DNA from: Bacteroidales bacterium
GTDB taxonomy: Bacteria; Bacteroidota; Bacteroidia; Bacteroidales; Azobacteroidaceae
Length of the DNA stretch: 32,760 bases
Direction of reading: 5' to 3'
Assembly: GCA_003851245.1 (NCBI GenBank)
Contig: BHEP01000034.1
Coordinates: forward strand, 1-32,760
Made by a program: the position numbers and the translations under genes. The notes under the pieces are model-generated. The model was not told the DNA's origin and searched no databases. It was given only the letters and a program-made list of their open reading frames with translations. Position 1 is the first letter of the stretch. Each line of letters opens with the position of its first letter. Below are positions 4,610 to 29,400 of this stretch, one piece after another.

Positions 4610-5718
4610 TGCCGTGTGGGTTCTTCTGCGCTAATAATTCCATTGCTCACCTGAAATATTTTATAATCGCTACTTATATTATTTATTATCTCATCCAAAT
4701 ATAAGCGGTTTGTATCTGTTACAAATATTTGACCGAACTGCTCTTGCGAAACAAGTTCAATAATTTTTTCCACCCTTTTTGCATCCAACTTATCAAAAAC
4801 ATCATCCAGCAATAATATTGGTGTAGAAATGCCTGTATTGACAAAAAAATCAAATTGCGCCAATTTTAGTGCTATTAAATATGTTTTAACCTGCCCCTGC
4901 GAACCAATCTTACGAATGAGGTGCTCTCCTAAAAGAAAATCAAAATCATCTTTATGGATTCCTACCGAGGTGTAACCTAGAGACTTATCGCGCTCACGCC
5001 TATTCTGCAGAAGTGATATAAGACTGTCGGCAGCCAGCTGAGATTGATACACGAAAGAAATGGCCTCTTCTCCCCCACTAATATATTTATAAAAAGAATC
5101 AAAAACGGGGAAGAAACTAGAGACAAAAGAACCTCGCTTGGTATAAACTATAGCAGCATTTTCTTGCATTTGCTCCTCTATAATATCATATAATACGGGA
5201 TCCTGAGCCAAGTGGCTATCTTTAAGCAATTTATTTCTTTGAACTAGCAGCTTATTGTAGGCAATCAAAGCTATCAGGTATTCTTTATCATACTGCGAAA
5301 TGACTAGGTCTACAAATTTTCTTCTCTCTTCGCTCCCCCCCTGAATCAATTCGGTGTCTGCGGGTGAAATCATCACCAAAGGCAGCAATCCTATGTGCTC
5401 GGAAAGACGAGCATATTCTTTTTTATTGCGCTTGAACACCTTGCGCTGTTTGCGCTTCAAGCCTACATAAACATCCTCTATTTCTTTACCAAAACTATAA
5501 GAGCCTTGCAGAACAAAGAAGTCCTCTTGGTGATTTATCAAATGAACATCCGATAAATTTGTATGATTTTTACAAAAAGACAGAAAATACAAGGCATCCA
5601 GCAAATTTGTTTTGCCCATACCATTATCACCAAAAAGACAGTTTATCTTGGGCGAGAAAAACAAGTCGGATTGGTGAATGTTTTTGAAATTTATTATCGA
5701 CAGTTTACTGATAATCAT
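4606..5718 (-). CDS. recF: DNA replication and repair protein RecF
   Basis: From the ATG at 5718 the product has 370 residues, typical for RecF. The Walker A motif GDNGMGKT lies at residues 30-37, the ABC signature appears as GSQGQVKT, and Walker B is PILLLDDVFDKLD. The SMC-like ATPase binds DNA at gaps and works with RecO and RecR to load RecA. An in-frame TTG at 5733 would add five residues. I choose ATG because MIISKLSIINFKN matches the usual RecF beginning. A TAATTTTG box at 5731-5738 lies just upstream but has no well-spaced TTG. The gene overlaps the DUF721 gene by 4 bp. Confidence 0.95.
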   Translation of the reverse strand: MIISKLSIINFKNIHQSDLFFSPKINCLFGDNGMGKTNLLDALYFLSFCKNHTNLSDVHLINHQEDFFVLQGSYSFGKEIEDVYVGLKRKQRKVFKRNKKEYARLSEHIGLLPLVMISPADTELIQGGSEERRKFVDLVISQYDKEYLIALIAYNKLLVQRNKLLKDSHLAQDPVLYDIIEEQMQENAAIVYTKRGSFVSSFFPVFDSFYKYISGGEEAISFVYQSQLAADSLISLLQNRRERDKSLGYTSVGIHKDDFDFLLGEHLIRKIGSQGQVKTYLIALKLAQFDFFVNTGISTPILLLDDVFDKLDAKRVEKIIELVSQEQFGQIFVTDTNRLYLDEIINNISSDYKIFQVSNGIISAEEPTRQ

Positions 5719-6719: not shown

Positions 6720-7211
6720 ATGGCAACAGAATTAAATAATTTATCCTTGCACGACAAAACTAAATTGCCATCTGCAGCAGAAATGAGCTTTGGCATACTT
6801 GTTTCTGAGTGGAATTCTGAAATTACAGAAGCCCTCAAGCAAGGAGCTTACGACACACTTACGCAGGCAGGTGCCAAGGAAGAAAACATAAGGGTAATGT
6901 ATGTTCCTGGAAGTTTTGAACTGGTCTATGGTGCCAAGAAACTTCAAGAACTTATGCGTCCCGATGCCATCATAGCACTTGGATCTGTAGTCAAAGGCGA
7001 TACGCCTCATTTTGATTATGTTTGTTCGGGAGTTACTCAGGGCTTTGCCTCTCTCAATGCAGCGGGCAGTATACCATTTATATTCGGCTTGTTAACCACC
7101 GACAATATGCAGCAAGCATTGGATAGATGTGGAGGCGTTCATGGCAACAAGGGAGTAGAAGCTGCAATTACTGCAATAAAAATGATCGATTTTACTTGGA
7201 GTTTAAAATAA
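6720..7211 (+). CDS. ribH: 6,7-dimethyl-8-ribityllumazine synthase
   Basis: The 163-residue product condenses 5-amino-6-ribitylaminouracil with 3,4-dihydroxy-2-butanone 4-phosphate, the penultimate step of riboflavin synthesis. Family landmarks are SEWNSEIT near the start, [31 protein letters not shown] with catalytic His97, and [15 protein letters not shown]. Length is normal. It follows the TPR gene and probably shares its transcript. The -33 element of the tRNA promoter lies inside its last codons. Confidence 0.95.
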
Positions 7212-7226
7212 TTATCCATATCTTTG
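7196..7226 (+). promoter_or_regulatory. Bacteroidota-type promoter for tRNA-Tyr/tRNA-Gly
   Basis: TTG (7196-7198), a 20-nt spacer and TATCTTTG (7219-7226) match the consensus exactly. The predicted start, near 7233, is about 20 nt before tRNA-Tyr. The -33 element lies within ribH, whose stop is at 7209-7211. Confidence 0.75.
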
Positions 7227-7252
7227 CATCGCTTTTAAGGGAAACAACATCT

Positions 7253-7335
7253 GGGCAGTTACCAAAGTGGCCAAATGGGACTGACTGTAACTCAGTTGAC
7301 TTACGTCTTCGGAGGTTCGAATCCTCCACTGCCCA
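7253..7335 (+). tRNA. tRNA-Tyr (anticodon GTA)
   Basis: The 83-nt sequence has acceptor GGGCAGT pairing with ACTGCCC. The anticodon stem ACTGA/TCAGT encloses loop CTGTAAC, giving GTA for tyrosine. It has the long variable arm expected of bacterial tRNA-Tyr and a TTCGAAT T-loop. CCA is not encoded. A second, slightly different tRNA-Tyr is cut by the left edge of the window. Confidence 0.95.
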
Positions 7336-7366
7336 CACTTAGAAGCTTTCAAAAGCTATCTGTAAT

Positions 7367-7439
7367 GCGAAAGTAGCTCAGTTGATAGAGCATTAGCCTT
7401 CCAAGCTGAGGGTCGCGGGTTTGAGCCCCGTCTTTCGCT
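7367..7439 (+). tRNA. tRNA-Gly (anticodon TCC)
   Basis: The 73-nt cloverleaf has acceptor GCGAAAG pairing with CTTTCGC and anticodon loop CTTCCAA, giving TCC for glycine GGA/GGG codons. CCA is not encoded. It follows tRNA-Tyr by 31 nt and is followed directly by the terminator. Confidence 0.95.
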
Positions 7440-7440
7440 C

Positions 7441-7478
7441 ACAAAAAGCCGTCTTATTTATTTAAGACGGCTTTTTGT
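7441..7478. terminator. bidirectional rho-independent terminator
   Basis: A perfect 16-bp inverted repeat (7441-7456 and 7463-7478, core AAGCCGTCTTA) encloses a 6-nt loop. The stem ends in A5/T5 and is followed by GTTTTTA on the plus strand. It ends the tRNA transcript. Its symmetry means it can also stop transcription arriving from the GH106 gene on the minus strand. It marks the boundary between the core block and the polysaccharide region. Confidence 0.92.
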
Positions 7479-7519
7479 GTTTTTATTGCTTGCGCTTATA
7501 ATAAACCTACCTTTTCAGT

Positions 7520-10500
7520 CTATTCATTATTCATCGTATTTTGAATCCTAAAGATAGGATATTTGTTTAGCACAACAGGACCTAAGAGACCCGATGTTCG
7601 TAGAGGGTAGTCTTTTGTAAACTTATGCACATTGGTTTTTGTAAAACCTTGTCCTTCGGGCAAGAAATGGTCTCCAATAATGCGATTAGGCCAGAGGTTC
7701 ACAATTTTTATCTGTAAGCTATTTTCTCCTTCTTTGAAATAGGCAGTCACATCTTTTTCGAATGGATATGTCCACCATACGCCTGTATTTACTCCATTGA
7801 TGATAACTTCAGCTATGTTGTAGACCTCTCCCAGATTGAGCGTTAGGCATTTCTCACGCAAGCAGTCGGCAGATATTATGAGTTTATTTTCATAAACCGC
7901 TGTACCTGAATAATACTTTACCCCAGGATCGGAATGAGCCGTCCACGAAATGAGAGAATCTAAATGAAGAGATTTGGGACCTCCCCATTGAGGGTCAAAA
8001 GAAAGAACCCAAGCATCAGCTCTTAGCAACTGTTGTTGAGGGGCTTCTACGGAAAGTGTTTTCTTAAAACCATTGGCATCGGTAAGCTCATAATTTCCTG
8101 CTTCCGCAAAGATGATAGCCCCATCGGGGCAAACTGTGAATGGAGCTTTATTCATTTTCTCTACAGATAGTTTTGGGAAAATAGATACACCATCTTTGCT
8201 TATTTCTGTATAATGAGATTTATCGGTAGGCTTACGAAAGACGACAAAAACAGAACCAAAAGGTTCGAGATACAAGGGCATTTCCATTCGACCATCACGA
8301 CTATCAAAAATCACTTGTGCCGTGTGCGAACCATCCACAGAGTTCCATATTTCAGGCTGCATATCAGTCACTCTAAAAGAGGCTTTAATCAGTTCAGAGC
8401 ATTCCAAGCGGTTGGCAATGTAATAGATTTCTGCTCCTCTATCGGTACGATGGATATAGTCGATAAATGCAGAATCTCCTTTGCTTTGATATATAAAATC
8501 TGGATATACTCCTTTATTTTGAAGCACCTCTCTAATTGGTTTACCCCATACTACCTGCCCTTTGCCATAAATATTTTCAAAAACTGTTTTACCATCTACG
8601 ATACCCCACATCTTGTCGGCAAGTGTGCTGATTTTTTTTGGGCCATTTTCAAAGTCTCGCAAGCCAACCGTTGTCATGGGTTTTGGTCCAATGAGTGTGG
8701 CACCCTCTTTAACTAAAGACTCCAATTTTTCCATTACTTCGGTTTTTATCCCTATGCGATTGGGCAGCACCAGTGCCTGATAAGTCATGCCGTCGGGAAG
8801 CACTATACGTCCATTTTTAACACTCATCCGCTTGAGAATGACTTCAGTATTGGTAATATCGTAATCGTAGCCTGTGCCCAACGAGGGGTCAAGATGCTTG
8901 AGATGCACCTGATTGGGAGTGTTGTCGCCATAATAATAACATACATCGCCAACGAAATGGCCTTGCGAAAGCATAAACGAATTGCGAGCAGTCCACGCCA
9001 AAAATGCTGGCGACTGTTCCCACCAAGTGACATTAGGATTGAAATGAGTGCCAGCAAAATATTCATTGCCAGGCATTCCTGCTTCTTTTGGGGAGTGCGT
9101 AAAAGTATGAATCACAAAACGATTGAGTCCTTCGCAGAACACACGATCGAATGTGGGTTTCATATAGCGAAAATCCTCTTCCCACATAGGGCCAATACTA
9201 GTGGGCCCTTCTGCTTGTACAAAACGCTTACCATAAATATGCGCCGCCGAGGCTGCTTGTTTGATAAATATGCGCGATTCATCTTCAACACGGTGAGTGT
9301 TGGCCCTAATCCAGAACTCACCCATAGGAATTTCATTTAAACCCAGGTTTTTAAGGGCATCAATTGGAGCTGGATGTGGCCCTCCACTTTCAGAATGAAT
9401 ACCCAGCCCATGAGCTGCTGCCCGTGCAGCAAAATGTTGGTAATGATTTTTATAAATCACATCACCGATAGTTCGTCTAAAATCATACAAAAAACGATTA
9501 GAAATATCTCTATTTTCTACAATAACACCTGCTATGATAGGCAGATATTTTGTGATGTCGTATCCATTCATCTGCTGAAAATCGTCGGCAAAAGATTGTG
9601 TCCAGTTGGTAGCACCCAATTCCCAACTATCATCGTGCAAGTATTTTAATGCATTTTTACCCTTGTCTTTGATGTCGTCTAATAGTACGCTCACAATGTT
9701 GTCGAATTGTACGTCCATGGCTTCTATGCTCATAAAATCCATTGCTAGCCCACCTGATCCTGGGCTGCATGTAGATACCTCAATACCTGTGCCTGTGTAA
9801 ACAAAGCGCATGATCTTGAATTTTCCTGCGGGTGCTTGCCAAGAAAGCATGCCCGAGGAATCAACTTTGTTGCTTATATCAATAATATCGGATAAGCGGG
9901 TGTGATACTCATCGGAGCTTGAGGACTCTTCTTTCATAAAAATATTCCAGTCGTAACCCAATCCTTTGATTTTAGGAATACCATAAATGGAGTGTACGGC
10001 TTTGATATTGAAATTTTCTAATGGAGCAATGGGATCGATGTTTTCATTGATTTTCATAGCCAATACAGCATATGGTTCGTAATACAATTGATCGGTATCT
10101 GGTCGTTTAAAAATCCCTCTGGGCAGGTCGAGCATAAATTTGAGCTCTTGTCCGCCCACGACATCAATCTCGCTCCAGACGAGCTTCTTTGAAGAGAGCT
10201 CGGGGGTAATCCAAGGTCCTCCATTGTTCCATCCGCTTCCCATATTGAGACTAATTTCAATATCAAGACTATCTGCAACTTGACAGGAGTACTTGAACAA
10301 GTCGCGCCATTGAGGGGACATAAATACTGGTCCAGATTCCGTTTTGTGAATATGATTATAGTTGGAAGAGCCGGCATCAAAAATAATTGCTCCTTTGATG
10401 CCTACTTTTTTCATTTCCGACAAATCATACAATATGCCTTCTCTAGAGTTGTTGCCTTCTAGCCACCACCAATAGGCCCTAGCTTTTGCGTAATCGGGAG

Positions 10501-10636
10501 GATTCATAAAATCTCCTTCCAAATCGGTGCTTGGTTTAAAATTAGAAACATCGTTGCAGAGCCTACTTGTTGTTTTATTACAGGATAAAAAGCAACAACA
10601 AAGAATAAAGATAATACTGATATAAAATGCTTTCAT
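7520..10636 (-). CDS. GH106-family glycoside hydrolase, putative alpha-L-rhamnosidase, lipoprotein
   Basis: The product has 1038 residues. A lipoprotein signal ends in FLSC with Cys19. The start of the mature protein, including ARAYWWWLEGNNSREGI (about 53-69) and MKKVGIKGAIIFDAG, is the hallmark opening of GH106. A long catalytic region follows, and the C-terminus (about 900-1030) looks like a galactose-binding beta-sandwich. Characterised GH106 enzymes release terminal alpha-L-rhamnose, for example BT0986 in rhamnogalacturonan-II breakdown. Surface or periplasmic location is inferred from the lipobox. It is the last gene of the minus-strand cluster, separated from GH78 by a 12-bp tandem array. 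No lesion is seen. Confidence 0.85.
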   Translation of the reverse strand: MKAFYISIIFILCCCFLSCNKTTSRLCNDVSNFKPSTDLEGDFMNPPDYAKARAYWWWLEGNNSREGILYDLSEMKKVGIKGAIIFDAGSSNYNHIHKTESGPVFMSPQWRDLFKYSCQVADSLDIEISLNMGSGWNNGGPWITPELSSKKLVWSEIDVVGGQELKFMLDLPRGIFKRPDTDQLYYEPYAVLAMKINENIDPIAPLENFNIKAVHSIYGIPKIKGLGYDWNIFMKEESSSSDEYHTRLSDIIDISNKVDSSGMLSWQAPAGKFKIMRFVYTGTGIEVSTCSPGSGGLAMDFMSIEAMDVQFDNIVSVLLDDIKDKGKNALKYLHDDSWELGATNWTQSFADDFQQMNGYDITKYLPIIAGVIVENRDISNRFLYDFRRTIGDVIYKNHYQHFAARAAAHGLGIHSESGGPHPAPIDALKNLGLNEIPMGEFWIRANTHRVEDESRIFIKQAASAAHIYGKRFVQAEGPTSIGPMWEEDFRYMKPTFDRVFCEGLNRFVIHTFTHSPKEAGMPGNEYFAGTHFNPNVTWWEQSPAFLAWTARNSFMLSQGHFVGDVCYYYGDNTPNQVHLKHLDPSLGTGYDYDITNTEVILKRMSVKNGRIVLPDGMTYQALVLPNRIGIKTEVMEKLESLVKEGATLIGPKPMTTVGLRDFENGPKKISTLADKMWGIVDGKTVFENIYGKGQVVWGKPIREVLQNKGVYPDFIYQSKGDSAFIDYIHRTDRGAEIYYIANRLECSELIKASFRVTDMQPEIWNSVDGSHTAQVIFDSRDGRMEMPLYLEPFGSVFVVFRKPTDKSHYTEISKDGVSIFPKLSVEKMNKAPFTVCPDGAIIFAEAGNYELTDANGFKKTLSVEAPQQQLLRADAWVLSFDPQWGGPKSLHLDSLISWTAHSDPGVKYYSGTAVYENKLIISADCLREKCLTLNLGEVYNIAEVIINGVNTGVWWTYPFEKDVTAYFKEGENSLQIKIVNLWPNRIIGDHFLPEGQGFTKTNVHKFTKDYPLRTSGLLGPVVLNKYPIFRIQNTMNNE

Positions 10637-10718
10637 TGAATAAATAATTGAATGAATAATTGAATGAATAATCTTACTGACAATTTGACTAATAATTTGA
10701 CTGATAATTTGACTAATA
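10635..10718. repeat. 12-bp tandem repeat array, seven imperfect copies
   Basis: Seven contiguous 12-bp units fill the gap between the GH78 stop and the GH106 start: ATTGAATAAATA, two of ATTGAATGAATA, a diverged ATCTTACTGACA, then ATTTGACTAATA, ATTTGACTGATA and ATTTGACTAATA. The array enters the last codons of GH78 (stop at 10713-10715) and touches the GH106 ATG (10634-10636). The two halves are related but distinct sub-families. Confidence 0.9.
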
Positions 10719-13004
10719 ACTCACAGCTAACTCGAAAACATATCGTCCGGAAGGGACTTTCCCTGCGAAAACACATTTTTCTTTTTTTAGTGTTTTGGAA
10801 GATATTTCCTTGTTGTTCATTATTACTTTGTATTTTCCCGACAAAAGGGGCAGATATACTTCCGCTTGCATATTGGCAGGAATGACAAGTTCCATAAGCC
10901 AATGTCCTCCAGACTGACAATTGTTCTGTATGGATACCTCTATATTCCCTTTGATGCTTGGAATACTCGCTTTGGCCCAATTAAGAGAGGCTATTTGCGG
11001 TTTTATTTTTACTGTCTCGAAGGCAGGGCTGAGGGCTTCAACACCCATTAATTTTCTGGAGATGGTGTTTGCAGGCACAGCTCCCCAGGCATGATTCCAA
11101 TCCTGATTGGGTTTATATTTGTCGTCCCAAGCCTCCATGGTAATGGTAGAGCCCGATCTGATCATATTGTACCAGCTACGATCGCTGGTGCTAGTAAGCA
11201 GTGAAAGAGCATACGCTGATTCTCCTGCATCATACAGGGCATCCATTAAAAATTGGGATCCATAAACACTACATGCCATGCCTCGCGAACGTATAAAATC
11301 AAGCACCTTATTTTGCTGCGCCTCTGGGACTAAACCAAAAACCAATGGAAACATATTGGCATGAAGCGAAGCATGATCCGTTGAAATACCATCAATATAA
11401 TAGCCTTTGCTGCTATCAAGAAAAGTTTTGTTGAATTTTATTTTCAATTCAGTAGCCTCTTTTCTAAACATTGTAGCTTCGTTTTCTAATTTCAATACTT
11501 TGGCTATGTCAGTCATGAGTTTCAATGACTGATAATGATAGGCATTAATTACGGTATTGTAGTCCGTAAAAACATATGCGTCGGCTTCTCCTCCTTGCTC
11601 CTTATTCAAACCCAATATGCCTGTGTGAGGCCAGTCGACAATATCTTTTATTGTGCCATTGAATCGAACTGATTCCAAAACTGCTGGTGTTATAAGTCCC
11701 GTTGTTGTGGATATGAAACCATTTTTCCCTTTGAGAGACAATAAACTTCGTGATTTCAAGAGCTCGTAATTTTCTTTTAGCGAACGCATATCACCTGTGT
11801 ACATATAGTCGTACCAAGCTATCATGAGGGCTTGCATAATCCACTCGGTAGGCCATGTAGGATGCTGCAATAAGTATTCGTGGGTATACCTAGCCATAGA
11901 ATATTCTCTATCAACGCCATAGTGGCTCAATTGATTGATCAGAGCATCTGCCTCATAAGGTATGCGCTCTCTGTCTCCATCGACATAAATACCCGCAAAA
12001 GAGGTAGCTTTGATAGAGTACTTGCATAGGTCCCAAATTTGGTTCAAGGTATCGTTGCTACACGAAAAAGAAGATGCTGTTTCGTCAAAATAATAATGTA
12101 CAGATTCTCTGACTACATCTTTTGTGGATAGAGTAGCATCGTATCCTTCGATTTCACAATATCTAAAAGGAAGTATTTCTCCTATATATTGAGGAATTTG
12201 TATTGCCGCAGCTTGTTCGTGACGCTTGTCTTTTCTTATATTTATTTTATAGGAATGTCTGCCTTTTTTTAATGACAAAGGATAGCACTGATAACGAATT
12301 GTTCCACCAGGCTTTCTATCAATGCGTTTGCCATTGAGGCGTTCTCCTAAATGCACCAATACTGTATCATTTTCTTTTTCGGAAAAAAGTGTTACTTGCA
12401 ATTGAGCAAATGCCGCTTTACCAAAATCAAGAACATGGCTTTTGGGAGCAATATTAATTATTTCAATAGGATTTTCTCTTGTTTTGAGCAATGGATAATG
12501 TGAATTGGCATAATTTGCAAGTTTCGAAGCCGTACGAAATGCCTTTACATCCGACCACTCACTTTCTCCATCGGTAGAGGTATGGGTTTTTACACGCCAA
12601 AAATAGTTTGTGCTAGCTTTCAAAGCTTTGCCCTGATAAGTTATAGCCGACGATTGTCCACTTTCATTTTTTTTGCTATTCCATACCGATGCTTTAGCAT
12701 CGAGAGCGTCCTTATAAGAGTCATCAACAATGATTTGATAGGCTACTTGCATTGTTCCTTGCCTTTCCCCTGCTACAATCCAACTAAAAGATGGGTACAT
12801 AGAAGATATCTCTGCCACTTGTACAAGGGCTGTTGTTTCATCAATTTTCCAAATAGGGATATTCAGTATATAGCCATTGCTATATACCCTATCGGTATGT
12901 TCTATCAGGTCAGTAAGCAAGCCTGTGGGTTTGATACTCGCCATTCCTTTTTGGAAAAACAATGTAGCTAATATTATTAGCAAGAATGATTTTAGAAGTC
13001 TCAT
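10713..13004 (-). CDS. GH78-family alpha-L-rhamnosidase
   Basis: The product has 763 residues with an N-terminal secretory signal (about 1-22). A fibronectin-like N-terminal region contains TNYFWRVKTHT and SEWSDVKAFRTA. The (alpha/alpha)6 catalytic domain holds DGDRERIPYEAD (342-353), DYNTVINAY (481-489) and TMEAWDD (622-628), with Glu624 in the position of the general base. The C-terminal beta-sandwich includes SPAFETVKIKP. The family hydrolyses alpha-L-rhamnosides by inversion. The stop is TAG. It is followed by GH106 and preceded by a remnant of a second GH78. The gene looks intact and was probably co-transcribed with SusC1/SusD1. Confidence 0.9.
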   Translation of the reverse strand: MRLLKSFLLIILATLFFQKGMASIKPTGLLTDLIEHTDRVYSNGYILNIPIWKIDETTALVQVAEISSMYPSFSWIVAGERQGTMQVAYQIIVDDSYKDALDAKASVWNSKKNESGQSSAITYQGKALKASTNYFWRVKTHTSTDGESEWSDVKAFRTASKLANYANSHYPLLKTRENPIEIINIAPKSHVLDFGKAAFAQLQVTLFSEKENDTVLVHLGERLNGKRIDRKPGGTIRYQCYPLSLKKGRHSYKINIRKDKRHEQAAAIQIPQYIGEILPFRYCEIEGYDATLSTKDVVRESVHYYFDETASSFSCSNDTLNQIWDLCKYSIKATSFAGIYVDGDRERIPYEADALINQLSHYGVDREYSMARYTHEYLLQHPTWPTEWIMQALMIAWYDYMYTGDMRSLKENYELLKSRSLLSLKGKNGFISTTTGLITPAVLESVRFNGTIKDIVDWPHTGILGLNKEQGGEADAYVFTDYNTVINAYHYQSLKLMTDIAKVLKLENEATMFRKEATELKIKFNKTFLDSSKGYYIDGISTDHASLHANMFPLVFGLVPEAQQNKVLDFIRSRGMACSVYGSQFLMDALYDAGESAYALSLLTSTSDRSWYNMIRSGSTITMEAWDDKYKPNQDWNHAWGAVPANTISRKLMGVEALSPAFETVKIKPQIASLNWAKASIPSIKGNIEVSIQNNCQSGGHWLMELVIPANMQAEVYLPLLSGKYKVIMNNKEISSKTLKKEKCVFAGKVPSGRYVFELAVSY

Positions 13005-13227: not shown

Positions 13228-14916
13228 TTATCTATTTTCCCAGCCTGGATTTTGAGCTATTGGAGCATCCTTGTTGGTATCTCTTACGACTTGTGGAATT
13301 GGCCACAAATTGAACTCAAAGTTCAGAGAAGCATTTACCTCACTATTCCAGTAGGCATATTTTTTGATGCGTTCAACAGCAACCTTACCACCCATTCGGA
13401 GAAGGGTATTCCATCGACATTCTTCGTAAACAAGCTCACGTGCTCGTTCGTCAAGAATGAGGTCTACGTTTACATCGCCAGCTGCAACAAGGTGTGCACA
13501 TTTTGCTCTATTGCGCAAGAGGTTGATATCGGAAGCTGCGCCATTTGAGTCTCCGTTGCGCCATTTGGCTTCGGCACGCAAGAGCACTGTTTCTGCCAAA
13601 CGAATAATATACTCGTCGCGAAAAAGGTTGCCTCTATTTTGTCCGTCTTCCAAGCCAGTGTACTTATCTGTTGCGATCTTACAAGAGACAGGGAAACAAG
13701 TAGAGAAGGTGAGTAATACCTTTTCGTCAAATCCTGTGGCATCCCAAGGAACAGGTTTTCCATAATAGGGAGATGAGGCAACATTTCCTAAAAACAACCT
13801 ACGCCATACAGCATTGGAGTTACGCAAATCATCAGCAAATTTGCCCTCATAAATAATATCACGAGTATATCTTGTTGGAATTATCTGCGAGATCCCACGT
13901 CCTCCCGCATCTTCCATCATACCAGCAAGATGGGCCCTGCCGCCATCACGAAATACAGGACCATAAATTCTTGAATATTGAAGTTTGGATGCGCCGTCTT
14001 CCACCTTATTTGCCTGGTAATCAATTTGAGCCACCCATATAGCTTCCTTATTGCCTTCTTGATAGTTCTGGTTGCCTTCTTGAAACATATCCCATATCAC
14101 ATTTCCCTCTATGGGATGCCCTACCTCAGAATAGAGATGTTGCTCTATTTGATCTTTTTCACTTTGGGCAAAATAGAATTCAGGATTTTCATTTTTTCGA
14201 GATCCGAAACGTTCGCTCATTAATCCATAAACGGATTTGTCTATAAGGTCGTCGCCATAGACAATAGATTTTGCGTAAGCTTGCTTGGCTTCGCTCTCTT
14301 TTCCATCTTGTTGGAGAGTAATACCTAGAGCCAGATGCAACTGACACAGATTATGTTGGGCTGCACCACGAACAATACGCCCTATCTGCGAACTTGTTTC
14401 GGGGAGATTTGGCAGTATGTTTTCCATCTCATCAATGGCAAACTGATAAGTTTCGGCACGCGTAGCACGTACAAAATCGTAACGTGCGGTGCTGGTTATT
14501 TCCTTTACGATGGGCACTCCACCATACAATTCACACAAATTGCGATAGCAATAAGCGCGAAAGAATTTTGCCTGCGCAATTACATAGGCTTTATCATTTC
14601 CTGAAGCCCATACAATTTGAGGCAGTTCGGCTGCATATAATGCCAAATTTGCTTTTGCAATCAACTGATACCAGTGACTGTAGTTGACGTAAAAAACGTC
14701 GTTGGATGTGGTGATCACTCCATAATCGTTGAATCTATTTGCCAAACGAAATGAGGGGGCATCAAACATGTCTGTACCATTGGCTCCTCTAAAAGCAAAA
14801 GAAGTAGCATTTTCTTCGACCATACACATCATCGTACGCACGTGAGAATAGCAGGATATTAACACCTGATCTACTTGCTCAGAAGTAGAAAAAGCATTAT
14901 CAATTGAATAGAACGT
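13228..14916 (-). pseudogene. SusD/RagB-family glycan-binding protein, N-terminus deleted (SusD1)
   Basis: The frame is open from just after a TAG near 14926 and reads NPKTFYSIDNAFSTSEQ and onward through a normal SusD fold. TPR-type helices include AQAKFFRAYCYRNLCELYGG, and the end has NLWPIPQVVRDTN and NPGWENR. Signal peptide, lipobox Cys and the first 35-40 residues are absent. The only near start is GTG at 14865, inside the domain. The upstream sequence switches directly to SusC1 in another frame. SusD proteins cap the SusC channel and bind glycan at the cell surface, so without lipidation this copy should not work. A short cytoplasmic product from GTG cannot be excluded. Confidence 0.82.
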
Positions 14917-17900
14917 TTTTGGATTTTGCTATGCCCGCATTTTTCACCCAAGTTTCTCTGAAAGAATAGGCTAGTGATACGTCTTGAATACGCACAAATC
15001 CACGATTTTGCAATCCCTGAAAACGTCCATCGCCGGAAAATGTAGCAGAGGTGTAGGTATTGCTCTTGTTTTCTGATGTCCACCAGGGGACATATACACT
15101 ATTGGAATTAAATGCTCCTGAGCCATTGCTCATATAAGCTGCGGCATTGGATTTCATAAAATAATCGCCGCCGCCGAATGTGCCTGTAATCATGGCATAC
15201 AAATCCCAGTTTTTGTATGTAAGCGTATTACTCATATTGAGTTTGAAATTAGCGCCTGTATAGCCCAGAATTTTACGGTCGGCGGCAGATATTCCATCCA
15301 CGCCATCCAAATCTTTGTATTTCGGATATCCAGGCTGCGAGCCCGTAAGTGCAATATACTGAGCATCATCTGTTTGTACTATTCCTTCCTGATAATATCC
15401 ATAAATAACCCCTAGAGGATGTCCTATAAAACGGCTATTAGAAATATCATCATCTTCTTTGCCATCGCCATTAAGATCTTCTCCGTAGAGATGCGCCAAT
15501 TTATTCCTATTCAACCAATAGGTAAACGAAGTAGTCCATAGCAAATCTTTTGTAGTAATATTTACTGTGCGTAGTGTTATCTCAAGTCCTCTATTATCAA
15601 TCTGTCCCATAGATGCTTTTATGGTTTTAAATCCAGTCATTACAGGAATGTCTCGTGTAAAAATCTGATCTGTTGTCTTTGAAAAATATCCATCAACATC
15701 GATGAATATTCGAGAATTAAGCAAAGCAGTCTCAAGGCCAAAGTTCCAAGATTCTGTCTGTTCCCATCCTAAGTCCATATTACCTAATGCGTTTGCATTA
15801 AGCCCGTAATAAATCGTACTATTATTTCCCCACTCGTAGCGTATTCCGCTGTTTGAGCCATTTATTACTGTAGAAAGAGTTCCGTATGCAGGCAGTCCCT
15901 GATTGCCATTCCTTCCCCAGGATGCTTTAAGTTTCAAGTTGTTGAGAAAACTCACATCTTTCATAAAATCTTCTTCCGTCAGATTCCAAGCTATTCCTGC
16001 TGCTGCAAAGTCACCCCATTTATTATTCGCTCCAAAAACAGAAGATCCATCTCTACGATAAGATCCTGTAAGGAAGTATTTGCTATCATAAGAATAACTT
16101 ATGCGCCCTAAATATCCGATATTTGATTTTTGGTTGTAATTAATATCTATTTTGGGGGTCGTTGCCTTATGCAAGCCATAGATACCCAAAGTTGTATTTC
16201 CATTGGCAGCATAATCTGATCCAGTAGCATTTTCGGATTCGTATGTATAACGGTCTCTAGTAGCCACCGCAGTAAGATCAATTGAGTGTTTTCCAAAAGT
16301 ATTTTTATAATTTACAATATTGTCAATCACCCAACTTGTAGTTGTACTATTTTGGATATTACCATTAGCACTGGCCAGCAATTTTTGGAGGGATGCTGGG
16401 GAGTAACGAGAAGGATCGTTATAAGCACCTTCTTTAATATAGAAAGATTCATGATGGAAGTTGCCAGACTGGTTTTTACTTAAATTCTCTGACAGGCTAA
16501 AACTATAGCTTAATCCTTTTACCCCTGGCACTTTAACTCTCGCATAGGCATTAAGACGGAAATTATTGCGAATATCCATATTCTTCCTTGCTGCATCGTC
16601 CACACCCCATAGAGGGTTGGCTTGCGATTGTGTAGCAGGAAAACGCTCCAATAGTCCACTAGCCTCATCACGGTATTTCATTCCATAAGGCGACACTCGC
16701 ATAGCAGCGGACAAATCGGCACCAACACCAGAGTAGTCCATTTTTGTATAAGACGCATCAAGACCAAAAGATAGCCAAGAAGTAATTTCTGTATTTACCT
16801 TCCCAAGTATGGAAATACGCTTATAATCATCACCCACTACGACCCCCTTGTTTCCTGAATAAGCTGCGGATAAGTAGTAATTGACCTGTTCAGAAGCACC
16901 AGACACTGCTATTTGATAATCTTGCAAGAAACCTGTGCGTGTAGATTCGTCTAGCCAATTGGTTTCTCTCCCAGCTTTCATATTTTCCTCTTCTTGAGCC
17001 GTTAGCCAATCAAGGTTGGTATCGAAGCCATTTCGGGCGATAACCGATTCTATCCATTGGTCGGCTTTCATCACCGTGGGTCTGTTTTGCCACCCCTGCA
17101 TACTCGTTGTTGCATTTAAGCTTACCATAGGCTTACCCGATTTTCCTTTTTTAGTGGTAATTATGATTACTCCATTTGCCGAACGGGAACCATAAGCTGC
17201 AGCCGAAGTGGCATCTTTGAGTACATCGAAAGAGGCTATATCGTTTGGATTTATATCATTGATACTTCCCATAAAAATTACGCCATCCACCACCATCAAT
17301 GGAGCATTTGAGCCCGATATAGATTTCTGACCACGAATTTGCATAGACGGACTTCCTCCAGCCGAGCTAGTAGCTCCAATATCCAATCCTGCTACATTTC
17401 CTTTAATAGCCTCTAAAGCATTCAGATTCGGAGCTAGAGCCACAGGGGAATTTTCCATTTTAACAGAGGCTACCGATCCTGTAAAATCCTGCCGTTTGGT
17501 GGTACCGTATCCAATAACAATCACTTCATCCAGAGTTTGGGTATCTTCGGTGAGTATAATTGCCAGATTTGATTTACCTACAATTACAAGCTCTTGGCTA
17601 TTGTATCCCAGATAAGAAACAATGATCTTAGCATCTTTAAGTGCGTTTAGTTCAAAGTTTCCATTGATGTCTGTGACTGTACCGATGGTCGTTCCTTTCA
17701 CCACCACGCTGGCACCAATAATGGCCTCGCCATTACTGTCGCGCACAGCACCTCTCACAGGCTTGCTGTCAGCTTGTGTGCTTTGAGCGCCCACCCTACG
17801 AACTATGTTTATGTTCCTATCATTGATCTTAAAATCGAGTTGAGTTCCTAGGAGTGCGTATGTCAAGACCTCTTCGATCTTCTTGTTTTTAGCCGATACG

Positions 17901-18142
17901 CTTACTTGAATGCCTTGCACATCCATATCTAGGTAAAAAAATAAAAATTCCGTTTGGTTCTCTATTTTTGAGAAAAGTTCTACCAAATCTATCTTATCTG
18001 CCTTAACAGATACTTGCGTGTGTTGCGAATAAAGATTCGTCGCCTGTACATAAGTAAAAGAAATGCTGAAAAATAGCATACATACCGACAATCTTAGAAT
18101 GAATCCTCTTGTAGTCTTAGCTTTTATATTCTTATGGTTCAT
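14900..18142 (-). pseudogene. SusC/RagA-family TonB-dependent transporter, C-terminus truncated (SusC1)
   Basis: The open frame gives 1080 residues: signal peptide (about 1-35), STN domain (about 45-115), carboxypeptidase-like regulatory domain (about 125-205), LDEVIVIGYG, plug domain (about 215-335), and most of the 22-strand barrel. It ends GFVRIQDVSLAYSF plus 19 residues. Compared with SusC2 in this window, about 50 further residues are missing, including the ENLLTFT strand and the last strand ending in an aromatic residue, which normally serves as the outer-membrane assembly signal. The STN domain implies signalling to the adjacent FecR and sigma factor. The truncation coincides with the loss of the SusD1 start, so one deletion probably explains both. 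Confidence 0.82.
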
Positions 18143-18277: not shown

Positions 18278-19246
18278 TTAATTTATAAAATATACATCTC
18301 CTTGTTTAGTCCACTTTAGGGGTATACTTAAGGCCACCAAATTCAAGATATTATCTAAGGACTGCTCTTCGGCAAATGTTCCTGACACTCTTACGGAAGG
18401 CATCTTGAGTGCTGCCTTATTAATTATGATACTCACTCCGTAGCGTGTTTCTAATTGCGATATAAGATTTTTAAATGATATTGATTTGTATCTTTGCACG
18501 CCATCTTTCCAAGCTATTGCTTCTTGGGCATATACTTCACGGATGGCTATTCCATTGCTTTTTTTATTGAAATTAAGTTCCTGATTGGGTAAAAGGAGTA
18601 CTTTTTGCGATGGACTTTTGAAAAATATAAAACCCTCAAGAAGGGTCGCTTTAATTTCTGCAGCCCCAGCTTCTGACTTTACGTTGAATATGGTGCCTAC
18701 TACTTCTATAGAGGCCTTGTCCAATTTTAATTCAAAAGGCAATAATTTATTTGAACTCACCTCAAAATATGCCTCACCTTCCAAGCTTACCGAGCGATTT
18801 TCTTTGCCATAAGAATCCGAATATGTCAAGCGGCTATACTTGTTTAGGCTAACTTTGGTTCCATCCGACAATGACAAATTTGTTTGGTTATCGCTGGTCA
18901 AATAAGTATAATATTGTACAACATTTTTGTTCTCACTTGCGGCAAAGAAAGTACTTGATATATATATCAAGAGCATGATACTAGCTGCCAATGGAGCTAA
19001 AACCATCAATATATTGCACCTACGGCGGCATTTCTTTTTTTCGTTTACATGCACAAATAATTTCTCTACCGCTACTAATGGCGAAACTGATGTATTGAAA
19101 GAAACCTCCGCATCCCAATAGTTTTTCAGGTCTGCAAACTCTTTTTTGTGAGCCTGATCCATCGATAGCCATTCGCTTAGTAAAAGAATATCCTCTGATG
19201 AAGCCTCGCCACTCAATACTCGAGAAATAATATAGTCTATGCTCAT
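18278..19246 (-). CDS. FecR-family anti-sigma factor
   Basis: The product has 322 residues. A cytoplasmic N-terminal helical region (about 1-75, with WLSMDQAHKKEFADLKNYWD) should hold the sigma factor. One membrane helix spans about 78-101. The periplasmic FecR domain follows (LSDGTKVSLNKYSRLTY, VSLEGEAYFEV, VVGTIFNVKS). The C-terminal DUF4974-type domain (about 245-322) would contact the STN domain of SusC. It lies between the sigma gene and SusC1 on the same strand, the standard sigma/anti-sigma/SusC arrangement in Bacteroidota. No lesion is visible. A 135-bp gap separates it from SusC1, in which I found no consensus promoter. Confidence 0.92.
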   Translation of the reverse strand: MSIDYIISRVLSGEASSEDILLLSEWLSMDQAHKKEFADLKNYWDAEVSFNTSVSPLVAVEKLFVHVNEKKKCRRRCNILMVLAPLAASIMLLIYISSTFFAASENKNVVQYYTYLTSDNQTNLSLSDGTKVSLNKYSRLTYSDSYGKENRSVSLEGEAYFEVSSNKLLPFELKLDKASIEVVGTIFNVKSEAGAAEIKATLLEGFIFFKSPSQKVLLLPNQELNFNKKSNGIAIREVYAQEAIAWKDGVQRYKSISFKNLISQLETRYGVSIIINKAALKMPSVRVSGTFAEEQSLDNILNLVALSIPLKWTKQGDVYFIN

Positions 19247-19298
19247 ATTTTAGAATGATAAATAATAAATGAGTAGTTGACTTACTCATACTTACCTT

Positions 19299-19329
19299 CT
19301 TAGTCGCAAGAAATGATAGAAACCCTTAG
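19299..19329 (-). promoter_or_regulatory. repeat motif copy B, upstream of fecR
   Basis: The minus strand reads CTAAGGGTTT, 12 nt (counted after GGGTTT), then GCGACTAAG. Copy A upstream of the sigma gene has the same ends at the same spacing; 23 of 31 positions match, and the differences lie in the middle. GGGT plus a CGAC element 15 nt later resembles the -35/-10 layout of ECF promoters, so an autoregulated promoter is possible. This is inference. Confidence 0.4.
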
Positions 19330-19350
19330 AGAGAAGAGATTTTTTCATCA

Positions 19351-19908
19351 TTATTCTTCATGTTTAATTATTAGTCGAAGTTTTTTTACGGCGGTGGCTA
19401 CATGTGCTTCGACCGTTTTTACGGTAATGTTGAGTATTTGCGCCACCTCCTTATATCTCAATTTATCCTCACGAATAAGCTTAAAGACCAGCTTACATTT
19501 CTCTGGCAGCGAGTCTATTGCTCTATTGAGTCGTTCTAGCTCCTCTTTGCTTATCAAGTCGTCTTCGGGAGTCGTTTGGGTACAAGCAAATAAGTCTATG
19601 TGTTGGTCGCTTAGGTCAAATGTATCCATGTGTTTTTGTCTAAAGCTATCTATCGCTTTTCGCTGAGCGATGGTATAGATATAAGCATTAAAATTGGCGA
19701 TACTTGCCAAAGTTTTTCTATTGTTCCAAATAGCCAAAAAGGTATCAGAAACTACCTCTTCGGCTTCGGAGGTAGTTTCGACATAGAGGCTAGTGAAGCG
19801 CAATAATGATGCAAAATACATCAGGTAAAGCGATTTTAATGCGGCTTGCGAATCTGTCAATGCCATTTCACACACCAAGGCGTTTATTTCTTCTCGTCTA
19901 TTACGCAA
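19351..19908 (-). CDS. ECF sigma-70 factor, Bacteroidota FecI-like family
   Basis: The product has 185 residues. Region 2 contains YLMYFASLLRFTSLYV, EAEEVVSDTFLAIWNN and FNAYIYTIAQRKAIDSFRQ. Region 4 contains LPEKCKLVFKLIREDKLRYKE and the helix-turn-helix VAQILNITVKTVEAHVATA. No region 1 or 3 is present, as usual for ECF factors. It would be held by the FecR protein downstream and released when a SusC with an STN domain meets substrate. The gene is flanked by two copies of a 31-bp motif (19299-19329 and 19950-19980). It follows the GH97 gene by 86 bp. Confidence 0.93.
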   Translation of the reverse strand: MRNRREEINALVCEMALTDSQAALKSLYLMYFASLLRFTSLYVETTSEAEEVVSDTFLAIWNNRKTLASIANFNAYIYTIAQRKAIDSFRQKHMDTFDLSDQHIDLFACTQTTPEDDLISKEELERLNRAIDSLPEKCKLVFKLIREDKLRYKEVAQILNITVKTVEAHVATAVKKLRLIIKHEE

Positions 19909-19994: not shown

Positions 19995-21935
19995 TTACAG
20001 AACAATGGCTTTAAAGATCAAACAAGCGCCGCCACCGGGGGCAAGCTGGAGTTGGAGTTGGCTCTTGCTAGTGACTATTTTTTCATCTACCATAAACGTT
20101 TCTCTATTTGTCAAATAATGTCCATCCTTTGCATCTTGTATAATTTTGACTTCATATTTTCCCTTCCCCAAAAAAGAAAGAGGAAGCGCAATTGCACGAC
20201 CCGATTCGTTTGTAGCAGCTCCAACCAATATCGCCTCATCCGTTTGACGCATCATTACAATGTATTCTCCAATTTCGCCTGCCAATGTTTTGCTTTCCAC
20301 CCAAGGCATTTTTTGTGATGCAATAAAATTCAGAAGTTCAGGATATTTATTATAAAACTCTGGAATATCAGGAAGAATGGTGGCTCCAGAAAATGTGATT
20401 AGAGTGCGTGCTGCCTCCGAAACCAAACTTGAAGGTACTGCTTGGTTTTCGTCTACTCTGGTAGTATTTCCTTGGCGGAGATCAAACATGCCATTATTCA
20501 TATCTATAGGGCCAGCAATCATATTGACAAATACTGTTGTTACGAATGTTTTGGGTACAAATGCACGATGTGCGTCTAGTTGAGCATGACAAAACTCTCG
20601 GGTTAGGGCATTTGGCCAGGTTCGCATTTGTCCATAAGGGTGAATTGGTGCGTCATGAAAATCTACCAGCAAGCGATTTTACGCACATAGAGCTGTAATT
20701 TTACGTGTCCAGTGGTTTTTTTCTTCGGGAGATCCATTCATAAAGCCATATTTCACGCCCTTTGCCCCCCATGTGCCATATTGTTTCAGTGTTTCTTCTA
20801 TCGGATATTTTCGTCCGCCCACATCGTTTAGGTAAAGCCATATGCCAATCTTTTTCTTCTCGGCATAGTTTATTAACTTATGTACATCCTTTGCCTTATC
20901 TCCTGCTATAGGATCAGATTCGGCTTCATGTTCGGGGCCATACCAATCGGCATCAAGCACAAGATATTCAAAACCTTGCTCAGCGGCAAAATCTACCATA
21001 CGTATCCACGATGGATAGGACATAGAATATGTAAAGTCCTTATTTATAGCTCCATTTATACGCCAATCCCATACCGCTATTCCGGGTTTAACCCACGAAA
21101 AATCAATATCAGGCGAGGGATCGGGGTTTAACAATTCAATGATATGCGAATCTACCAGTAAGCCCGGAGTAGATCCATAGAGTATCACACGCCAGGCAGA
21201 CTTATAATCTGGAAACAAATGATTGGGATTGGAAGATACAGTAAACTGCTTAGAACCCTGCTCTGTATGCAATACGAGTGGCTGCCCGTCAATAAGATCC
21301 GCTTCATGCACAGCCATATAGTGGAGTTTACCTGCTTCAATGGTCATTACTGGCAGGCGTCGGCCCACACTTTCGGAGAGTTTTTCTGGTCCTAAGTTAT
21401 GGTATTCTCCATTGTAGAACCATGCAGTATAATCATCAGAAAAATTATAAGCAGTCAATTCCGACAATACCCCTACCCGCTTTGTTTCTGTTTTTGGAAC
21501 TGCGTATCTAAAGGCTATACCATCATTGTAGGCACGGGCTATAATTTGCAGGTGGCTCAAAGAGGAAGAGGTAGGTGCTCGTAAATCCAATACCAACTCA
21601 TTAAAACAATCGGATACAAGAGAACGCTTACCCCACAGAGGCTTCCATATCCCATTGACCTGATTTCGAGTAAGCTCTTCTACCATCCAGTTGGAAGAGG
21701 GAATTTTAATGTTTTGCTCCAACTCAAAGCCCAGTGGAGAGTTCTCTATGAGCTGCTTCCCGTTTGCTGTAAAAGAATAATAGAAAGCCCTATCGCTAGA
21801 CTTGGTAATCTCCATCAGCAATTTTCCGTCGGGGGATGAGAGTTTGTAAGTTTTAGCAGCACTTGTTACTGAAAAAGACTGTATTCCAACGAATAGAAGT
21901 AATAATAAAAAGAAAAGAAAATGTTGTTGTTTCAT
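19995..21935 (-). pseudogene. GH97-family glycoside hydrolase interrupted by an in-frame TAA
   Basis: The full frame is 647 codons. Residues 1-418 carry a signal peptide, the N-terminal beta-sandwich and the start of the catalytic barrel (VKPGIAVWDWRI, LVLDADWYGPEHEAES). TAA at 20679-20681 then interrupts KITALCA-stop-NRLLVDFH, and the same frame continues without shift through PNALTREFCHAQLDAHRAF, NMIAGPIDMNNG and the C-terminal domain. AAA (Lys) to TAA is the simplest explanation. GH97 enzymes are alpha-glucosidases or alpha-galactosidases needing calcium. This copy has KYGFMNG where many retaining members have an Asp before FM. Its ATG overlaps the sulfatase stop (ATGA), so the two were translationally coupled. 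Confidence 0.83.
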
Positions 21936-24666: not shown

Positions 24667-26451
24667 TTACCAGCCTGGATTGGGTTTCAAATTTGGATTG
24701 CGAACAATCTCTGCTGTTGGTATACAATTGAGATAATCTCTATTTTCTTTAAAACCGTATCCATTGGGCATTGATGCAGACATAGGATCAAGTAGCCCTT
24801 TGCTATCGACTTTAGGCTTAAGTCCATTCCATTCAGAGGGATCAAAAGGGTATCCTTTGGGTCGTTTTCCCTGTATCAATTTATGGGCACGCCAGCGTTT
24901 GATGTCGTTGACTCTAAAATCTTCCATTGCCAATTCGCTGCGACGTTCTCGACGTATTTCATACAATTGGTCACTTATGGGGTATCCATAATCTTCTTTA
25001 TTGGGCTCGTTTATTATTTTGAAGTCTGGCATCCCTACCCTTTGCCGTAGCTTATTGATGGTATTGTCGTAATCGATCACTTCTCCCAATTCGGCTTTTG
25101 CTTCGGCATAATTGAGCAAGGCTTCGGCGAAACGAAAAACGATGGCACCATTTTCATCAATAACACTATATACTCCGCCAGCAGTATTCCCCTTGGGGTC
25201 GGAGCCTTTTTTTGAATGAAAGCCTGTTGAGTTGCCCAATTCTCCCGTCATATCAATAGCAGGCTTATCAAAATAATTTATCCCATTGGCATTGTTCCAC
25301 ATCAGATCGCCAGGTATGCGTATGGATTGGGCAAAACGAGGATCTAAGTTTGCAGCCATTTGCACTAAAAAGGCATTTCCCTTATATTGACCCATTGCTT
25401 CCTCCATATCATATACCTCGCCATCTTTGTCCAGATAGGAGGCCACCAAAGACATTGTCATGCCCACCTGGCTAGGTCGATTGGAGAGAAACATTTGGGC
25501 AGCATTTAATTGACTTAAGGCGGCGCTGTATCTTCGCCAGAGCAAAATTTCCTTATTGTTGCTGTAGTCAAGTTTGTTGAATAGCTCGTAATAGGCATCT
25601 GTGACTTGCCCAGTGCTTATTCCCACAGATGGGCTTCTAAGCAATTCGTCAACTGCATCGACAGCAATTCGAAAATATTTTGAAGGATCAACACCCGCAC
25701 TTGCAAACTCTGTGCCTGCGTGATATTTCTGCCAAGTTCCCTCGTACAATGTCACTCTGGACTTAAAAAGGAGTGCCGCTTCTTTACTCAATCGGTTGCG
25801 TCCGCCACTTACCTTATGTAAGGGATCAAGAAAAGTTATGGACTTGTCCAGATCAGACAAAATAGAATCTACAACTAAGCTTCGAGGGTCTCTTGCCTTG
25901 TATAGGGACTCATCTTGCATACTTAATTCATTCTGGTAGTATGGCACATCGCCAAACTGCTGAACTTTAGCAAAATAAAAAAATGCACGAAAAAAATGGG
26001 CTTCCCCCCCAAAATGTTGGTACATGGATATATCGTCTTGGCATTTGGCATAATTGCCAAAAAAAATGTTCACTTGCCGTATTGATTCCCAATTCCAAGC
26101 TGCATTATTTGCCACTACCGACCGAGTGCCATTCAAGTAATCATTGGGAGTGTAGCCATGTATGGCGTTGTCGGATCCTGAGAATGCGTCGCCTCCAAAT
26201 ATTCCAATATAGTTTTCATCGTTGGCATTAAAGGTCTTGAATTTAGTGTAAAATTGAATCGTATAATTTTCAAGGTCTTTTGATGAAGTCCAATATTGCT
26301 TATTTCCTATTTTGTCGAGAGGCTCTTTGTCCAAAAAATTTTCACATGAAATAGATAGCAATGACATTACTGCTAGCATTGTCACTATCATTAAAAGGTT
26401 TTTTTTTCTATTATTATTATCAATATTTTTCATCGTTTTCATTGTTTTCAT
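24667..26451 (-). CDS. SusD/RagB-family glycan-binding lipoprotein (SusD2)
   Basis: The product has 594 residues. The signal ends in LLSISCENFLDKEPL, giving a lipid-anchored Cys. TPR-like helices (GGEAHFFRAFFYFAKVQQFGD), RFAEALLNYAEAKAELG and the ending NPNLKPNPGW are typical SusD features. It would form the glycan-binding lid over SusC2. It follows SusC2 by 4 nt. Three in-frame ATGs at 26451, 26442 and 26433 arise from a 9-bp repeat (MKTMKTMKN), so the exact start is uncertain. In contrast to SusD1, this copy looks intact. Confidence 0.92.
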   Translation of the reverse strand: MKTMKTMKNIDNNNRKKNLLMIVTMLAVMSLLSISCENFLDKEPLDKIGNKQYWTSSKDLENYTIQFYTKFKTFNANDENYIGIFGGDAFSGSDNAIHGYTPNDYLNGTRSVVANNAAWNWESIRQVNIFFGNYAKCQDDISMYQHFGGEAHFFRAFFYFAKVQQFGDVPYYQNELSMQDESLYKARDPRSLVVDSILSDLDKSITFLDPLHKVSGGRNRLSKEAALLFKSRVTLYEGTWQKYHAGTEFASAGVDPSKYFRIAVDAVDELLRSPSVGISTGQVTDAYYELFNKLDYSNNKEILLWRRYSAALSQLNAAQMFLSNRPSQVGMTMSLVASYLDKDGEVYDMEEAMGQYKGNAFLVQMAANLDPRFAQSIRIPGDLMWNNANGINYFDKPAIDMTGELGNSTGFHSKKGSDPKGNTAGGVYSVIDENGAIVFRFAEALLNYAEAKAELGEVIDYDNTINKLRQRVGMPDFKIINEPNKEDYGYPISDQLYEIRRERRSELAMEDFRVNDIKRWRAHKLIQGKRPKGYPFDPSEWNGLKPKVDSKGLLDPMSASMPNGYGFKENRDYLNCIPTAEIVRNPNLKPNPGW

Positions 26452-26455
26452 GTTT

Positions 26456-29400
26456 TTAGAATTTAATATCTACTCCAAAAGAAATAACAGAAACAGGAGA
26501 TGCGGCTTTGCCCATCCCTCTACCTGCTGATGAGACTGTTGCTATCTCTGGGTCAAAATGCTTGATTAAATTTGTAAATGTAAGCAAATTTTCTCCCGAA
26601 AAAAAGAAACGAGCGTTTTGCATATACAACTTATTGGCAATCTTATCGGACAAGCTATAACCCAACTGTATGTTTTTCATCCTTATATAAGCTCCATCTT
26701 GAATATATTTGGTCTGAACTTGCTGGTTTTTAGCATTTAAGTTGACTTGCAGATATGGTCTTGCAAAATAAGCATCCCTATTTTCGCCCAAGCCCCTATA
26801 TTTACTTTGGTCTTGGTCTCTAAAATAATCTGTATGTGTCGTAAAAATAGATGATTGCATACTGGTTGTAAAACCCCAGAACATATTGCCTGTCAATGCA
26901 ATATCGCGCTTGCCAACACCTTGCCACATCATTGAAAAATCGAAACCTTTGTATGCCATATTCAAGGTAAGTCCAAAGTTGTAGCGAGGAGTTGAATTGC
27001 CTATAATCTTTTTATCTCCTGGATCGTCAACCGTTTCCGAAGCTTTTGTTATTTTACCATCAGCACTCCCATTGATATTCAGATACTTGATGTCCCCTAC
27101 TTGCCACACTTGCCCAGAGATATCGCTTTGAATGCCATTGGCATTAATATTATCGGCCTCGGCCTGTGTATTTATAAATCCATCGCTTACATATCCCCAT
27201 ATTTCGCCTACTTGCTTACCCGTATAATCACGGGTATATACCTTTTGAGGATTATAAAACTTCGTAAACTCTGTTTTGGAATCAAAAATTGTTGCTCCTG
27301 CACTGTAAGTAAAATCGCCAATATTATCCCTCCATCTTATTGACAATTCCCAGCCCCGGGTTCGTGTTTCGGCATTATTATCTTTGGGCAAGGAAGCTCC
27401 AATAACCAGGGGTAAGTCTGCGGCAGTACCTAGCCTATTCTTAATATACTGCTCAAACCAATCGGCAGAAAAGGACAATCGGTTATTGAGAACAGTAAAA
27501 TCCAATCCAAAATCTAATGTTTCAGATGTTTCCCATGTCAATTGTTGGTTGACCAATTGTGGAGCTCCTATGTAATAAGGTCGATTGCCATCAAGTATCC
27601 AAGCTACCTGATTAAGACTGCCCATTATTGGCAAATCTTGATACGCAGCAACCTCTTGATTTCCTAACTGTCCCCATGACACTCTCGCTTTTAGCAAGCT
27701 TACTTTATCAAGCACAGATCCTTTCCAAAAGTCCTCTCTCGATACGTTCCATCCTCCAGATAGCGAAGGAAAAAATCCCCATCGATTGCCTCGTGCAAAT
27801 CTTGACGAACCATCATAACGAACATTGCTTTCAAACAAATAACGCTCTTTATAGTTGTAGGTCAATCGTCCAAAAAATCCAGCAGTCGACCAATGGCTAA
27901 TTTCATCTCTTGCAACCTTATCGCCAGAGCTTGTAGATATTGAGGGCACTTCAGGAGTGATCAATGTTTGCCCCGTTCCAAAAAGCTTGTCCGTCTTGCT
28001 TTCTTCCAATTGTCCACCAGCCATTACAGTAAAATTATGTGCACTGTTGATACTATGGTTGTAGGAAGAATATAGGTTAAAACTATTATACAATATATTG
28101 GCCTGATCTTTATCCAATCGGCTATTTTGAGTATTTGCCCTCACTTGCTTTGTTCCATCGGGGCGAATTTCGTATTGAGTAATTTTTGGCATTTCGTGCA
28201 ATAGAGAACTTAGCCTAAAAGAATAATCAGCATTAATATTCCAATCTTTAGTTGGAGATATTTTGAGGGCAAATCGTTGGTTATATACATTATCAAGATT
28301 TAGCTCCGAGCCCGAATCTTGTGACCAAGGTATCTTCGATTGTGTGGTATATTCTCCAAAAGGAGTATATTTGGCATCACTGGGAAAAGTCCGTGCTATT
28401 TGATGAAACAACAAGGCATAATCGCCCTGTGCATCAAAACTAGGACGCTTACGAGTAGAACGATCGAAGCGCGTATTGATAGACAATGTCATCCATTTGG
28501 TAAGGTCGGCATCCATTTTACCCAAAAAATTGATACGTCTATAATCATCAATTCCATATTGAAGTATTCCATCTTCATAGGTGTTGCCTAGGGAAATAAA
28601 ATAGCTATTGTTATGATTACCCCCCTGAACCGACACATTTTCATTGTGCGCCAAGGCCGATCCATAAAACTCCTTATACCAATCATAATCGCCATTGCTT
28701 TGCATACCACTTGCCCATTGATTGCCTGGTAGTCCATAGGTTTCGTCCTTCAAGCTACCAGCCTGGAAGGCAAGGATTCTATCTACAAGCTCATCGGTAT
28801 AGAGATGCTTTCCATTTCCATTGTATTCAGCCTCATTATATACCCGTGCAGAAGTATATGAATCGAGCATCTTAGGCAGTCCAATAGAATTTGTCACTCC
28901 TATATTTGCCGAAAAACCAAGGAGGGTTTTTTGATTCTTTTTCCCTGATTTGGTTGTTACCAATACAACTCCACTAGAGCCTCTCGATCCGTAAATTGCA
29001 GCAGCGGCAGCATCTTTCAATATGGATATATTTTCTATATCGTTGGGGTTTAACTGATCCAGACTTCCTGGCACTCCGTCCACAAGAACGTATGCGTCGC
29101 TTTGTCCACGAATTTGAAAACTCATGCCTTTGCCTGGTTCAAAACCATAGCCCCCTGCGGTAAATGTCATACCAGCAACTTGCCCTTGCAAACTTTTGGT
29201 AATGTCAGAAACAGGCCTGCCCTTGAGTGTTTCGCCATTAATGGCTTGAACAGCACCAGTTAGATTGACCTTTTTCTGCGTACCATAGCCAATCACCACC
29301 ACTTCATCTAAAGCTTGTGTATCTTCTAAGAGACGAATATTAAATGATGACTTTCCTCCAATAGGTAGCTCCTGCCTGCTATACCCCACATAAGAGATTA

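Follow-up and report, generated by a model that had tools for sequence, protein, structure and literature searches.

A probable single deletion across the susC1-susD1 junction of a rhamnosidase-type PUL in a Bacteroidales genome

In the stretch of DNA analysed here (32,760 nucleotides, hereafter the window), the adjacent minus-strand genes susC1 and susD1 are both truncated at the point where they meet, and the pair was in all probability broken by one deletion of ~255 bp. The window is the entire contig C34 of a 2.94-Mb assembly in 118 contigs (99.7% complete), and a search of a plasmid collection returned no match. It carries a PUL consisting of an ECF sigma/FecR pair, susC1-susD1, GH78, GH106 and GH97 genes, a sulfatase, a GH43-like gene and susC2-susD2 (Table 1), and the presence of GH78 together with GH106 suggests a rhamnose-containing substrate. 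A short tandem-like repeat, reading SNYQSNY.. / FIQLFIQLFIQ, occupies the gap between GH78 and GH106 (10637-10713).

Table 1. Coordinates and state of the features discussed, in positions of the window.
Feature	Position	Strand	State
GH106 alpha-L-rhamnosidase	7520..10636	-	open
GH78 alpha-L-rhamnosidase	10713..13004	-	open
susD1	13228..14925	-	5' end truncated; PF14322 and PF07980 retained; normal C-terminal end
susC1	14900..18142	-	3' end truncated; STN, CarboxypepD_reg and plug domains retained
Deletion joint (GCAAAATCCAAA)	14918..14929	-	~242-266 bp (median 255) absent relative to orthologues
FecR-type anti-sigma factor	18278-19246	-	open
ECF sigma factor	19351-19908	-	open (sigma and FecR span 18278..19908)
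GH97 in-frame TAA	20679-20681	-	within catalytic domain of GH97 gene (19995-21935)
susD2	24667..26451	-	open, lipobox Cys present
susC2 in-frame TAG	29639-29641	-	signal peptide and STN (29642-29956) cut off from plug/barrel ORF (26456-29599)

Truncated reading frames and their joint

The minus-strand frame of SusC1 is open from 18142 to a stop codon at 14900-14902 and encodes the CarboxypepD_reg-like (PF13715, 9.1e-19) and TonB plug (PF07715, 2.2e-13) domains of a SusC-type TonB-dependent transporter, together with an STN domain whose Pfam match falls below the cut-off. The protein remains in frame until ~14918 and then ends out of frame (...NVLFN*), its C-terminal reading being ...GFVRIQDVSLAYSFRETWVKNAGIAKSKNVLFN*. 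A complete barrel that ends in an aromatic or hydrophobic residue of the last strand is missing from SusC1, which has lost ~44-48 residues, including the barrel end and the terminal F, has gained a few out-of-frame residues, and ends ...KNVLFN. In the adjacent frame the sequence from 14925 is NPKTFYSIDNAFSTSEQVDQV, and this frame continues uninterrupted to the end of SusD at 13228, encoding both SusD domains (PF14322, 8.8e-16, and PF07980, 8.1e-27; Pfam SusD-like_3 and SusD_RagB). The SusD1 frame starts at NPKTFYSIDNAF (14925), so that it begins NPKTFY and is preceded by the codons *Q, with neither an ATG nor a Cys leader; ~26-35 N-terminal residues are gone, and with them the type II signal peptide and the lipobox Cys. 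The initial annotation had described both truncations, and the sequence and frames agree with it in position and in the absence of a SusD1 signal peptide and lipid Cys; its figure of about 50 residues for the SusC1 shortfall is slightly larger than the length measured here.

The joint, GCAAAATCCAAAAACG, is located at 14929-14914, with the exact breakpoint ambiguous within ~14929-14918. It reads ATA GCA AAA TCC AAA AAC GTT in the SusC frame and CAA AAT CCA AAA ACG TTC in the SusD frame. Relatives mostly carry TTN or CTN and then AAA at the corresponding place in SusC, and GAA AAT/AAG CCN GAA ACN at that in SusD. AAAAT fits both sides of the breakpoint and up to AAAATCCAAA is possible, as judged from codons of relatives at 50-70% identity, which do not represent the true ancestor. 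From these codons we infer a 5-10 nt direct repeat at the breakpoints, and the joint would fit a deletion between short repeats; slipped-strand (RecA-independent) deletion between such repeats appears to be the likeliest mechanism. In a reductively evolving Streptococcus agalactiae lineage, indels longer than 4 nt are flanked by repeats with a median of 8 nt and have been attributed mostly to RecA-independent recombination (PMC3637634). The event in the window resembles pseudogenes made by RecA-independent deletion between short direct repeats, such as those of S. agalactiae ST260-261 (PMC3637634), in being a frame-disrupting deletion, with a putative 5-10 nt repeat, in a gene set under relaxed selection; it differs in that it truncates two adjacent genes and in that its putative repeat is read from relatives rather than from a sister strain.

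Undeleted orthologues and the extent of the loss

A scan of genome contigs with the SusD1 remnant yielded 23 loci, 20 of which were measurable across the junction and, with the whole-genome relative L003, give 21 orthologous pairs (~48-70% identity for SusC and ~49-71% for SusD). All 21 share one layout: SusC runs from a conserved L-K-[VLI]-[FY] via ...GGDPEVG...YPVLTSFSLGANISF, or close variants, to its stop codon, and the SusD that follows after a short spacer carries a signal peptide, Cys and ...ENPETFYTVDNAFSTSEQVDQVL. Because the points joined in the window lie 242-266 bp apart in these pairs (median 255), a single deletion would have taken the last SusC1 barrel strands, the SusC1 stop codon and the spacer together with the SusD1 start codon, signal peptide and lipid-anchor Cys. 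This bears out the earlier proposal that one event lies behind both truncations. The accompanying estimate of 250-300 bp, taken from SusC2/SusD2, also came close. It overlooked that its yardstick SusC2 is broken too, by an in-frame TAG that follows the STN domain. The initial annotation had named, as evidence that would speak against a deletion, homologues whose natural termini coincide with the joint points; none were found among the 21 orthologues (0/21) or among the other SusC-linked pairs of the genome.

Orthologous susC-susD genes reside in the alpha-L-rhamnosidase PULs of Parabacteroides sp. Marseille-P3160 (L032), P. acidifaciens (L054), Dysgonomonas (L033) and Tannerella MAGs, with SusD up to 71% identical, and in all of these PULs the ~255 bp missing from the window is present. 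In Parabacteroides sp. Marseille-P3160, GH106 (58%) and GH78 (60%) lie directly downstream, as in the window PUL, but GH106 precedes GH78 whereas the order in the window is reversed. The same locus carries a second, partial SusC1-like segment (L032, 1702-2619) upstream of the intact pair. Separately, a Parabacteroides MAG (L048) has its SusC orthologue split across two frames at ~4698-4702.

Decay of the locus and SusCD pairs across the genome

Two further lesions place the susC1-susD1 deletion within a wider decay of the locus. The first is the susC2 TAG, a position at which relatives and paralogues have T, Q, K or other residues; downstream of it the SusC2 ORF restarts at an ATG at 29599 and has no signal peptide. 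The second is the TAA that interrupts GH97, a stop codon which had also escaped the initial annotation; the second GH97 gene in this genome is intact. What remains of the susC1-susD1 pair is little eroded. At columns invariant in all relatives, SusC1 keeps 229 of 237 residues (8 deviate), within the range of intact relatives, and SusD1 keeps 209 of 222, its 13 deviations lying somewhat above those of its closest relatives. These counts rule out runaway erosion of the pair, and since so little has changed in either remnant the deletion is probably recent.

The genome contains 64 SusD hits and 89 plug hits. Stretches around the SusD genes were extracted and the gene ends read. The SusC C-terminus is F or L in 61 of the 62 SusD-linked SusCs, SusC1 being the sole exception, and a signal peptide with Cys is kept in 63 of the 64 SusDs, where SusD1 stands alone in lacking it; of the 63 leaders, 53 were recognised by a script pattern and 10 by eye from the N-termini, one of these 10 (L101) at a contig edge. 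A genome-wide recoding of stop codons was rejected, since the SusC and SusD frames across the genome are, with few exceptions, open. At least three susC genes are broken outside the window locus: one on C38 (L120, G000:C38:22000-27765, ~2130-2250) that combines a frameshift with an internal deletion of at least roughly 400 nt, one on C22 (L124, G000:C22:21500-29000, ~4056) with an in-frame stop (NNKGV*VQISY), and a fragment on C16 (L139, G000:C16:1-9500, 6800-9500) with multiple stops and frameshifts, which is an older pseudogene. Decay of susC is thus recurrent in this genome but not general, and is concentrated in the window locus. We conclude that this rhamnosidase-type PUL is undergoing ordinary pseudogenisation and forms a cluster of early-stage pseudogenes, while the genome as a whole has more than 60 SusCD pairs; a literature search on PUL pseudogenes did not find a direct parallel.

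Alternative explanations and predicted consequences

The assembly is a draft in 118 contigs, and an intact genome could in principle have lost ~255 bp at a short repeat during contig building or amplification. The putative shared stretch of 5-10 nt is far below usual assembly k-mers, however, and the locus holds two unrelated nonsense codons in a genome with other broken susC genes, as expected from real decay; these independent lesions make such an artefact unlikely. The little-eroded remnants, together with the fact that short-repeat deletion is ongoing in bacteria, would also suit a polymorphic deletion with an intact allele persisting in part of the population. Against this, such a deletion cannot revert by itself, the genome has the junction stretch only once, with no second copy of the region in the assembly, and we give this explanation next to no weight.

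Both leftover frames are open and overlap by a few codons, and a +1 shift would fuse SusC1 and SusD1, so one might imagine that the pair works as it stands, either as a naturally short SusC and a SusD without leader or as a joint product made by coupling or frameshifting. That form is absent from the 21 orthologues and from the remaining SusCD pairs in the genome, and it is not evident how a SusD fused to a barrel that lacks its last strands would reach the surface; we find this explanation hardly credible. Programmed frameshifting at the joint was considered and rejected: the SusD frame is +1 to that of SusC, and inspection found no recognisable slippery site of the standard heptamer type. 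The near-complete conservation of the remaining SusC1 and SusD1 sequence is compatible with a shortened SusC1 and a leaderless SusD1 that have been kept and still function, for example through signalling of the SusC1 STN domain to FecR without transport, but we regard such a retained role as very improbable.

A single deletion, with a predicted loss of function, is accordingly our preferred reading, and its consequences can be predicted for each protein. The overall confidence of an AlphaFold2 model of the intact orthologue from P. acidifaciens (L054) was low (mean pLDDT 53.8), and we drew on its C-terminal strands alone; the model places the last strands at 1035-1047, 1059-1067/1070-1073 and 1094-1104, with the conserved K at the break being residue 1061. 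On this weak model the break would fall within the penultimate SusC strand, with most of that strand and the whole final strand lost. The β-signal for BAM sits in the last barrel strand (PMC10945584), and SusC1 would presumably not be insertable by BAM. In Bacteroidetes the export signal comes after the +1 Cys (PMC5080379); SusD1, having neither signal peptide nor Cys, would be expected to stay cytoplasmic and form no surface lipoprotein. The initial annotation had foreseen the failure of both SusC1 insertion and SusD1 surface display, a reasonable expectation. Export should likewise fail for SusC2, which is cut off from its signal peptide.

Given the defects in SusC1, SusD1 and SusC2, the window locus should no longer be able to import its glycan. 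Neither SusC importer of the PUL should work, and annotation pipelines would be mistaken to list the PUL among functional rhamnose-glycan loci. As an instance of gene loss in a genome rich in SusCD pairs, the susC1-susD1 deletion is clear but ordinary.
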